Virus record (IMG/VR): IMGVR_UViG_3300031933_000072
Coordinates: 1 to 21,650 of that record
Reading direction: 5' to 3' (one strand)
Length of the DNA: 21,650 nt
DNA from: a virus
Within the stretch, counting starts at the first letter, position 1; each line of letters opens with the position of its first letter. The notes beneath the pieces are model-generated. The model saw only the letters and a program-made list of their open reading frames with translations. It was not told where the DNA came from and ran no database searches. Positions 1,247 to 19,499 of the stretch are shown piece by piece. Both the position numbers and the translations under genes were made by a program.

Positions 1247-1375
1247 TTATGCGTAATGTCTGTATGCCATATCCTGATAATCGTGTGAGTCCCGCGCATA
1301 ATCTTCGTCGAGTTCTTCTTCGAGCTCGCCGTATTCTGTCGTATATGTATAGTCGAAGTCGTAGTCGTCGTACAT
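1247..1375 (-). CDS. Acidic Tyr/Asp-rich small protein, 42 aa
   Basis: A 42-codon frame starting MYDDYDFDYTYTTEYGELEE and ending in DMAYRHYA. Asp, Glu and Tyr make up more than half of the residues, and it has no membrane segment or cysteine. The family is not recognised; a surface or DNA-mimic-like role is possible but not shown. Support: a CTATAATACATATAC promoter box lies 23 bases upstream in the same layout as neighbouring genes, and GGAA lies before the ATG. A longer Arg-rich frame on the same strand (1236-1445) is a shadow. Confidence 0.7.
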   Translation of the reverse strand: MYDDYDFDYTYTTEYGELEEELDEDYARDSHDYQDMAYRHYA

Positions 1376-1397
1376 AAGGTGTTCCAGAATGTATATG

Positions 1398-1404
1398 TAT
1401 TATA
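1398..1404 (-). promoter_or_regulatory. TATAATA promoter box
   Basis: The minus strand reads CTATAATACATATACA, matching the box and AC-rich start region of the other cassettes. It precedes the 42-aa acidic gene and lies at the left edge of the repeat-rich non-coding block. Confidence 0.55.
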
Positions 1405-1488
1405 GCATGTATCTCGATGATACGCAAGCTCGTGTCGAGATACACACCTGTATATATGATCTCGAATGATATGATATGCTTATGTGTA

Positions 1489-1642
1489 TCTCGTCGAGAC
1501 TTATGATACTTATGATACTCGTGTGTATCTCGTCGAGACTTATGATGATATGATGTATTCTCGTCGAGACTTATGATGATATGATGTATTCTCGTCGAGA
1601 TTATATGAGACTTATGTGTATTCTCGCCAGTTCTCGTCGAGA
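1489..1642. repeat. Five 11-bp dyads with a 31-bp tandem repeat
   Basis: The odd palindrome TCTCGTCGAGA occurs exactly at 1489-1499, 1528-1538, 1559-1569, 1590-1600 and 1632-1642. Bases 1528-1558 and 1559-1589 are identical 31-bp units. Centre-to-centre distances are 39, 31, 31 and 42 bases, so three of the four intervals are close to whole helical turns. A one-base loop cannot fold as an RNA hairpin, so binding by a dimeric protein is more likely. Degenerate copies lie at 1429-1440 and 1622-1628. Confidence 0.85.
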
Positions 1643-1717
1643 TTTTATGCGAGACTGTGAAGTTTTATGGCGGTCCTCTTGACTTTTTCGCGTTCTTGTG
1701 GTAGAGTGTCGGCTTAG

Positions 1718-1871
1718 CTCACAAGACCCAGACACCTTCTTATAAGACTTTATGCGTCTACAAGCATAACTCACAAGACTCTGAGACCTTCTTATAAGAC
1801 TAAAGATCATTATTATAAGACTTTCTACTATTCTTATACTCATAAAGTCTTTATGCGTATAAAAGCATAAC
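1718..1871. repeat. Direct and inverted repeats left of the DnaA boxes
   Basis: CTCACAAGAC occurs at 1718 and 1770. CCTTCTTATAAGACT occurs at 1735 and 1787, the same 52-base offset, with a shorter ATTATAAGACTTT copy near 1812. TTATGC...GCATAA hairpins occur at 1750-1769 and 1851-1870. CATAAAG T CTTTATG is a 15-base odd palindrome at 1841-1855. No frame is open across the segment. Confidence 0.75.
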
Positions 1872-1877
1872 CAATAG

Positions 1878-1897
1878 TTTTCCACAGGTTTTCCACA
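1878..1897 (+). other. Two direct DnaA-box-like sequences
   Basis: TTTTCCACA occurs at 1878-1886 and again at 1889-1897, an 11-base period that puts both on the same DNA face. TTTTCCACA is the form reported for cyanobacterial oriC boxes (E. coli uses TTATCCACA). Two exact 9-mers side by side beside iteron-like repeats are unlikely by chance, but function in a phage is inference. Confidence 0.6.
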
Positions 1898-1944
1898 ACC
1901 ATATTCTCAATATGTCTCAAAAAGCACATAAAATCACCAATATT

Positions 1945-1972
1945 CTATTATACATAAAAAAAAGTATAATAG
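1945..1972. promoter_or_regulatory. 9-bp dyad carrying divergent TATAAT boxes
   Basis: CTATTATAC (1945-1953) and GTATAATAG (1964-1972) are perfect inverted repeats around an A-rich 10-base loop. Each arm contains TATAAT, one facing right toward the HNH gene and one facing left into the repeat block. The rightward box ends 9 bases before the HNH start codon, so that mRNA would have almost no leader. CAATATGTCTCA occurs twice, at about 1908 and 1977. Confidence 0.6.
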
Positions 1973-1979
1973 TATCAAT

Positions 1980-2519
1980 ATGTCTCAGGACGTTACGAGA
2001 AGGATTTCTGACATCGAAGGAATGGAAACCTATAAGTTTTACTTCGCAACCATCAATGGAGACATCTACTCAAACAAACACAAAAGACCAAGAAAACTTA
2101 AGATACACTCGGTAGGTAACAATAGACACTATCGTGTAGTTCAACTTTCTGATGGTAAGGGCAATTCAAAATCCTTCTACGTTCATCAAATCATTTGTAA
2201 GGCATTCCTACCTAATCATACCGACTCCTGGGGAATTAGACATAAGGACGGTGATGTAACCAATAATGCTCTTGAGAATCTAGAATGGTTAGGTAGAAAA
2301 AAAGAAAGAGATGGTGTAATAGGATTAGACACCGATAGACTCGAATTAAATGAGAATCTGAGTGATTACATTAAACTGGTACATCTATCAGCAATCAAAA
2401 AAGGTATTCCTGTTCCCGACACTTATGAGTTCTTTCATGGTATCTTGAATGAATCACTGAATGAATACATCAATCGATTTGGTCTAAAGAAAACTATGTA
2501 TCAGATAGAGAACTCTTGA
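1980..2519 (+). CDS. HNH homing endonuclease with NUMOD4-like N-terminus
   Basis: A 179-aa protein and the only plus-strand gene. Residues about 12-35 (DIEGMETYKFYFATINGDIY) match the NUMOD4-type DNA-binding motif, usually followed by an HNH_3 domain. Residues about 68-105 supply the latter: VHQIICKAFLPN, then GIRHKDGDVTNNALENLEWL, with the conserved H, the DGD/N cluster and the NLEW signature. Such enzymes nick or cut DNA to spread their own gene. The C-terminal 65 residues are helical and unassigned. It has no Shine-Dalgarno sequence, and a TATAAT box lies 9 bases upstream. Its orientation and flanking repeats fit independent acquisition. Confidence 0.88.
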   Translation: MSQDVTRRISDIEGMETYKFYFATINGDIYSNKHKRPRKLKIHSVGNNRHYRVVQLSDGKGNSKSFYVHQIICKAFLPNHTDSWGIRHKDGDVTNNALENLEWLGRKKERDGVIGLDTDRLELNENLSDYIKLVHLSAIKKGIPVPDTYEFFHGILNESLNEYINRFGLKKTMYQIENS

Positions 2520-19078: not shown

Positions 19079-19499
19079 TTTTCTGTCCTGCCTTGTATCC
19101 TTCTTTAAATGCTATCCAAGTCGCAGCATCATAATCATTCGTAGACATATCAATTATTGGATAATGTCCGTAAAAATCCCGATATGCTTTTTCAACATTA
19201 GTCCTCACAGTTTCCTGATATTCTAATAGTTTCAATCTCTGTTGGAGGTTCGCAATATCTTTCTTGGTTTGTTCTATTTGTGAGAGTTCGGGTTCTTGTG
19301 GTGGTTCTGGCCCCAACCATTCTTCAAGTGCTTCTAATGCTCCCTCTTCACCAGTTTTAGGTTTCACTTTATTCACAAATACTTTTAATGTCCTCCCACC
19401 ATCTTGAAATTGCCAAGATACATCATTATCATCTTCCCAAGAAACATACTCCCTGCCCCCAGTATCTGTAATAACTTCAAGTCTTGTAATTCTAGTCAT
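19071..19499 (-). CDS. Coiled-coil protein with N-terminal beta domain, 142 aa
   Basis: Residues 1-50 form a strand-rich part (ITRLEVITDTGGREYVSWED, then WQFQDGGRTLKVFV). After a Glu/Pro linker (GPEPPQEPE) it has the coiled coil and the VEKAYRDFYGHYP/WIAFKEGYKAG module shared with the 136-aa protein. So one paralogue has the module at its end with a beta domain in front, and the other has it at its start. Function unknown. Confidence 0.84.
   Translation of the reverse strand: MTRITRLEVITDTGGREYVSWEDDNDVSWQFQDGGRTLKVFVNKVKPKTGEEGALEALEEWLGPEPPQEPELSQIEQTKKDIANLQQRLKLLEYQETVRTNVEKAYRDFYGHYPIIDMSTNDYDAATWIAFKEGYKAGQKND

Follow-up and report, generated by a model that had tools for sequence, protein, structure and literature searches.

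A conserved promoter and DnaA-box element, a candidate replication origin, in T4-type Synechococcus phages

Introduction

The replication origins of bacteriophage T4 are of several types. At oriF and oriG, a promoter is combined with an AT-rich element and the R-loop formed by the transcript primes the leading strand, and oriE carries 12-nt iterons, of which the role is undefined (PMC3016281). The T4 origins need MotA, and cyanophages lack motA (PMC2984593). Cyanophage Syn9 was predicted to have a single theta origin (Weigele et al. 2007, as cited in PMC2984593). In cyanobacteria, the DnaA box is TTTTCCACA, for which binding tests were carried out in Anabaena and Cyanothece, and the reading of this sequence as a cyanobacterial DnaA box in the initial annotation of the DNA described here agrees with its published description (PMC4674748).

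T4-type cyanophages are among the commonest viruses of the ocean, and what is on record about where and how their replication starts is the prediction for Syn9. Here we describe a block of cyanophage DNA that was initially proposed as a candidate replication origin. The block almost certainly belongs to a cis-element that is conserved among T4-type Synechococcus phages. By comparison with related genomes, the presence in these phages of a single-copy, syntenic element consisting of a promoter and DnaA boxes is confirmed, and its function as an origin is a plausible prediction.

Results

Organization of the gene-free block

The window, i.e., the whole stretch of 21.65 kb analysed, comes from the genome of a T4-type cyanophage, of which it is a fragment, and matches Synechococcus phages S-PM2 and S-SRM01 at scattered places, in agreement with its initial assignment to a T4-type phage. 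Its genes include one of the DNA end protector family and several for homing endonucleases, and small ORFs are numerous on the minus strand. In a close relative, contig G002 (93.5 kb), the same gene set is joined to the baseplate genes gp25 and gp6, located on the left of the block. Along the window (1-21650), the GC skew declines steadily, being about 0 close to the block and about -0.3 at 20 kb. The features of the block and its borders are as follows.

1247-1375, minus strand: acidic 42-aa ORF (MYDDYDFDY...) adjoining the block on the left, read from the sequence
1399-1427, minus strand: P1, putative promoter of the leftward gene as judged from its sequence (TTGCGT-N17-TATAAT, TGC ahead of -10)
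1489-1642, no strand assigned: five TCTCGTCGAGA palindromes (1489, 1528, 1559, 1590 and 1632)
1679-1707, plus strand: P2, promoter-like site (TTGACT-N17-TAGAGT, extended -10), identified by sequence and profile homology
1708-1740, plus strand: presumed start of the P2 transcript, conserved (GCTTAG.TCACAAGACCCAGACACCTTC), matching GCTAAGMCWACAA...GMACATT of marine isolates
1712-1822, plus strand: AT-rich direct repeats of the CTTATAAGACT family (CTCACAAGACYCnGASACCTTCTTATAAGACT)
1878-1886, plus strand: DnaA box 1, TTTTCCACA, exact match, in an array conserved near P2
1889-1897, plus strand: DnaA box 2, TTTTCCACA, two bases past box 1, exact match, in the same conserved array
1928-1987, plus strand: AT-rich stretch with hairpin ATTCTATTATAC/GTATAATAGTAT (arms 1942-1953 and 1964-1975)
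1980-2519, plus strand: HNH_3 endonuclease gene, 179 aa, downstream of the boxes (PF13392, E=2.5e-7; phrog_959, E=5.7e-21)

The block was described at first as gene-free, and it is so except for a mechanically called 94-aa ORF (1601-1885, minus strand), which itself has no support. No match to Rfam, tRNA or tmRNA was found at the block. The acidic 42-aa ORF on its left side is aligned and conserved in seven relatives (alignment of the window with G001-G003 and L411-L414). Counterparts of P1, i.e., divergent TTGACAAT...TATAAT-type sites, are located at a comparable place in S-CAM1, S-CAM3, Syn9, S-SM2, Syn19 and S-RIM8. The dyads, AT-rich direct repeats and small hairpin of the initial annotation are all present, corresponding to the five TCTCGTCGAGA palindromes, the CTTATAAGACT family and the AT hairpin, respectively. 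Two of the palindromes sit within an exact 31-nt tandem repeat, and copy number varies among relatives; the direct repeats are represented by seven 21-mers in the relative G001. By its least stable 60-bp piece, the 1928-1987 stretch falls within the 5% of 500-bp blocks in the window that are least stable. P2, the most conserved part of the block, had gone unremarked; it points rightward through the boxes, against the neighbouring genes.

The two TTTTCCACA copies reported initially are both found on the plus strand (1878-1886 and 1889-1897), 11 bases apart from start to start and within a 10-base direct repeat, and are the sole exact copies in the window. Upon shuffling of the window, 0.56 copies are expected and 11 of 100 shuffles carried at least two copies anywhere, so that two copies per se are unremarkable and what is remarkable is the tandem arrangement. 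Direct boxes 11-12 bases apart may resemble the arrays of E. coli oriC.

Homing endonuclease insertion behind the element

The ORF at 1980-2519 carries an HNH catalytic domain (PF13392, above the family cut-off), and minus-strand genes flank it left and right. This ORF literally makes the sole strand change in the window, which was originally taken as a sign of an origin. As such a sign it was rejected, because the plus-strand ORF is merely an HNH_3 gene inserted between minus-strand genes. The same HNH gene is present in G002, the closest relative, and the insertion site behind P2 in isolates is without any endonuclease gene. Since endonuclease genes vary at this spot and are missing in isolates, the strand change represents a homing-endonuclease insertion but not a switch in genome polarity. 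The insertion hot spot behind P2 harbours HNH genes in the window, G002 and G003, another HNH-like gene in G001, and GIY-YIG genes in L411 and L413.

With an HNH gene adjacent, and with two single matches in 21.6 kb being not rare, the box pair might be taken as a chance cluster or as part of the HNH mobile element. The probability of this reading is close to nil, because the element is present in isolates without the HNH gene, once per genome and in synteny, a conservation that refutes it.

P2 marks one fixed place in the genome

P2 is near-identical in G001-G003 and L411-L414. In the four closest relatives it is almost invariant, amid palindromes and repeats that differ in copy number. A P2 profile was trained on the P2 region of eight isolates, leaving out the window. 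It identified exactly one place, with strong E-values, in each of the eight training genomes, in S-RSM4 and in ACG-2014d. It also matched G003, the window (1679-1740), G002 and G001, all outside the training set, the E-values being 2e-6 (G003), 0.003 (the window) and 0.02 (both G002 and G001). The marine form of P2 is TTGAC-N15-GTGCTAAGMCWACAA...GMACATT, with a weak -10 (TAAGMC), and S-SM2 and the window lineage have 12 extra bases between TTGAC and GCTTAG, giving a good -10 (TAGAAT/TAGAGT). P2 searches of 50,697 phage records matched 213 and 50 records (some shared), all being cyanophages, in nearly every case at one place per record. Both P2 and the boxes are absent in the Prochlorococcus phages P-SSM2 and P-HM1 and in the freshwater phages S-CRM01 and S-SRM01.

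In all 12 genomes with P2 in which gp25 was found, gp25 is located on the opposite strand, 1.6-12.7 kb behind P2. The position of the element is therefore constant, in front of the baseplate genes. In S-PM2 (NC_006820), the annotated tRNA-Leu and tRNA-Asn (19177-19333) overlap the element; ARAGORN finds no tRNA there, and this annotation is likely to be misplaced.

A recurrent class of promoter was noted on the minus strand of the window, in which GGACACTT-N4-AACTGGCACA, often as an inverted repeat, is located about 30 nt upstream of TATAAT (plus-strand coordinates of the boxes: 56, 665, 905, 1192, 2954, 5665, 11758, 12597 and 15620). The pattern TGKCACA-N27..33-TAYWAT is enriched in most cyanophages tested (six copies in the window vs 0.1 in block shuffles; 16 vs 0.7 in P-SSM2; 9 vs 0.55 in Syn19) and is absent in S-CAM1 and S-CAM3. 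A box of the same GGACACTT class precedes P2 in S-CAM1, S-CAM3, S-RSM4 and S-PM2. The TGKCACA-class box is possibly an activator site in these phages lacking MotA.

Arrays of DnaA boxes in related phages

A 30-base query including the box pair matched 116 records, mostly of Synechococcus phages, nearly all at one intergenic place. S-CAM1, S-PM2, Syn1, S-CAM3 and S-RIM44 share a common anatomy, in which divergent promoter-like sites are followed by an AT stretch (e.g., TATGTTTTTTAATACATT) and then by the boxes. A total of 13 complete isolate genomes were examined, four of which had been picked because they matched the box pair and nine of which had not been so picked. An exact TTTTCCACA pair within 50 bp was identified in eight of the 13, forming one cluster each; for 600 permuted 9-mers, the mean number of such genomes was 0.07 and the maximum was three, none reaching eight. 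Among the nine genomes not picked by the boxes, the pair was found in four (Syn9, S-SM2, Syn19 and S-RIM8) and was missing in S-RSM4, P-SSM2, P-HM1, S-CRM01 and S-SRM01. In ACG-2014d, a second box pair is located at 37690, 0.8 kb from its own P2 element.

For a test unbiased by the boxes, viral contigs were fetched by P2 core words alone. At least two exact TTTTCCACA copies within 350 bp were found in 27 of the 28 non-redundant P2 elements, with a mean of 2.64 boxes per element vs 0.09 expected from the same contigs, and the boxes were mostly located 80-200 bases downstream of the P2 start. Altogether 79 exact copies lie beside P2 vs 0.32 expected (about 244-fold enrichment), while the one-mismatch variants total only 17. 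The element is composed of a sigma70-like predicted promoter, P2, directed opposite to the genes, followed by AT-rich DNA and two to four TTTTCCACA boxes.

A search for the same block in relatives had been named at the outset as a check, and the TTTTCCACA array is indeed strongly conserved, at one place per genome, in T4-type Synechococcus phages. The conservation is not universal among the relatives with P2: S-RSM4, L411, L412, L413 and L525 keep P2 with no boxes nearby, indicating that the boxes are not essential in all lineages. In S-RSM4 (140181-140300), an inverted repeat, TTGATTCTCAATAG...TATTGAGAACC, is present in place of the boxes, and in L532 this repeat is present together with DnaA boxes. 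As a specific marker, the 20-mer TTTTCCACAGGTTTTCCACA was rejected, since over 119 viral contigs carry it and many of these are unrelated.

The boxes are direct in some phages and inverted in others, with spacings from 11 to over 30, and the intervening spacer varies, with 62% identity in the commonest class. Direct boxes forming no stem are found in the window, S-CAM1, Syn1 and G001-G003, among many. Since an RNA stem or terminator needs the inverted form, the mixture of orientations with variable spacing is the behaviour of a protein-binding site. These observations bear on a reading in which P2 drives a non-coding (antisense) RNA gene and TTTTCCACA matters as an RNA hairpin or in pairing. 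The conservation of the P2 start region beyond the promoter hexamers agrees with such a gene, as do the potential of inverted boxes to form an RNA stem, the intrinsic-terminator-like hairpin after the boxes in G001, and the antisense transcription reported in Kyanoviridae (PMC10976474). Given the many direct copies, the absence of an Rfam match, and the coincidence that perfect agreement with the DnaA consensus of cyanobacteria would then be, we regard an RNA gene as quite unlikely.

Host DnaA as the predicted ligand

The boxes, which match the cyanobacterial consensus, are probably bound by host DnaA. Phage-encoded DnaA domain IV (PF08299) was not found in 21 phage records, and therefore DnaA of the host is the likely ligand. 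Synechococcus WH7803, the host of S-PM2 and S-CAM1, encodes DnaA domain IV with the usual GGKDHTTV motif. Just upstream of WH7803 dnaN are TTTTCCACG and TTTTCCCCA, each one base off TTTTCCACA; no exact TTTTCCACA was found at the dnaN region, only these one-mismatch boxes, and TTTTCCACA is not enriched genome-wide in WH7803 (14 copies vs 15 for the reversed word). The phage boxes would therefore be nearer to the consensus than the candidate sites of the host. An inverted TTTTCCACA pair, 44-45 bp apart, is located at the same place in two hosts (WH7803, 1819368/1819412; UW140 contig 3, 64508/64553), beside a DnaK-like gene and away from dnaN and dnaA, and may be a DnaA site of the host.

Binding by another phage or host protein, for instance one of packaging, segregation or recombination, has a low probability, lower still than that of the RNA gene. 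DnaA is a predicted ligand, and T4-type phages are not DnaA-dependent as far as known (PMC3016281 is silent on DnaA), both of which leave room for such a protein. On the other side are the exactness of the match to the cyanobacterial DnaA consensus, with 79 copies against few variants, and the occurrence of the same word in DnaA-type arrays of many unrelated viral contigs.

Even with DnaA as the ligand, the boxes could serve without initiation, either as a regulatory region in which host DnaA tunes P2 (and P1) or as a sink by which the multiplying phage genomes titrate DnaA from the host oriC. The boxes lie beside divergent promoter-like sites and can be on either side of P2, they are perfect in the phages vs degenerate at the host dnaN region, and P2 is kept where boxes are lost, all in accord with regulation or titration. 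A sink, however, needs no tie to one promoter at one place, and for titration a number of two to four boxes per genome is small; as for regulation, P2 yields a non-coding transcript in isolates, the control of which alone would be of little obvious use. This alternative, although rather unlikely, is the main rival of the origin reading and accounts for much of the same data.

Discussion

The proposal of an early origin

The reading that we favour, at about even odds, is that the element is a transcription-linked early replication origin that recruits host DnaA. In early infection, host RNA polymerase would transcribe a short non-coding leader from P2, and host DnaA would bind the boxes cooperatively and help to open the AT-rich DNA. 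The leader would act as primer or as activating transcription: the first round of phage replication would be started either by the leader RNA (as an R-loop) or by helicase loaded at the opening, and recombination-dependent replication would then take over. A single hybrid origin of T4-type Synechococcus phages, in which host DnaA is recruited to a transcription (R-loop) start like that of T4, is put forward somewhat more tentatively.

In favour of an origin are the single copy, the fixed place and orientation relative to gp25, the promoter-like P2, the AT-rich stretch and the perfect box array. As in an oriC, host-consensus boxes are clustered, two exact ones in the window and at least two near P2 in 27 of 28 relatives. 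The GC-skew profile, suggested initially as a check, gave no support: neither GC nor AT skew has an inflection at the element in 13 isolate genomes (eight under the oriC-type test), and the detrended GC-skew extremum is located 8-11 kb from the element in Syn9, S-SM2, Syn19 and S-CAM3 and elsewhere in others. This absence weighs little, as T4-type replication may erase an inflection. The AT-rich signal turned out to be weak by duplex stability; an AT-rich stretch is present by the boxes, but its stability is mostly unremarkable and seldom ranks with the lowest in the genome.

If true, the hybrid origin would be the first in the T4 superfamily to be linked to DnaA, and would have escaped notice in some 200 sequenced genomes. 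No link between cyanophages and DnaA boxes was found in the literature searched (papers available without subscription), and the element seems to be undescribed. Recruitment of host DnaA, if it occurs, would couple early phage replication to the cell cycle of the host and to its supply of DnaA, unlike in T4. A single, precisely located element makes the start of replication directly testable in S-PM2, Syn9 or S-RIM8.

Comparison with known origins

The element is similar to T4 oriF (ori(uvsY)) and oriG in that a promoter is followed by an AT-rich stretch of about 100-200 bp, both near gene 25. With respect to the combination of promoter and unwinding element at oriF and oriG, the promoter-like P2 is present, and the unwinding element is the part weak by duplex stability. 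T4 oriF, at uvsY, is positioned 3' of gene 25 and fires in the direction of the genes, whereas cyanophage P2 is 5' of gp25 and fires against them. The oriF neighbourhood (uvsY, 3' of gene 25) is thus not reproduced, and orthology with oriF through gp25 synteny was rejected because the element lies on the other side of gene 25 and in the other direction. The T4 origins are without known DnaA boxes, unlike the cyanophage element. With oriE, the element shares a cluster of evenly spaced short repeats, as in plasmid iterons (PMC3016281), but the oriE repeats are of 12 nt and are not DnaA boxes, and the cyanophage arrays are often inverted.

The origin predicted for Syn9 is single, and Syn9 has exactly one copy of the element (52.6 kb); in the review that cites the prediction (PMC2984593), DnaA boxes are not mentioned.

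The element differs from cyanobacterial oriC in being located in a lytic phage and not beside dnaN or dnaA, in having fewer boxes, in its tie to a counter-oriented promoter without GC-skew inflection, and in that its activity is a prediction. What it has in common with oriC of Synechococcus elongatus PCC 7942, Anabaena PCC 7120 and Cyanothece 51142 is that exact TTTTCCACA boxes, in direct or inverted orientation, form an array close to intergenic DNA rich in AT.
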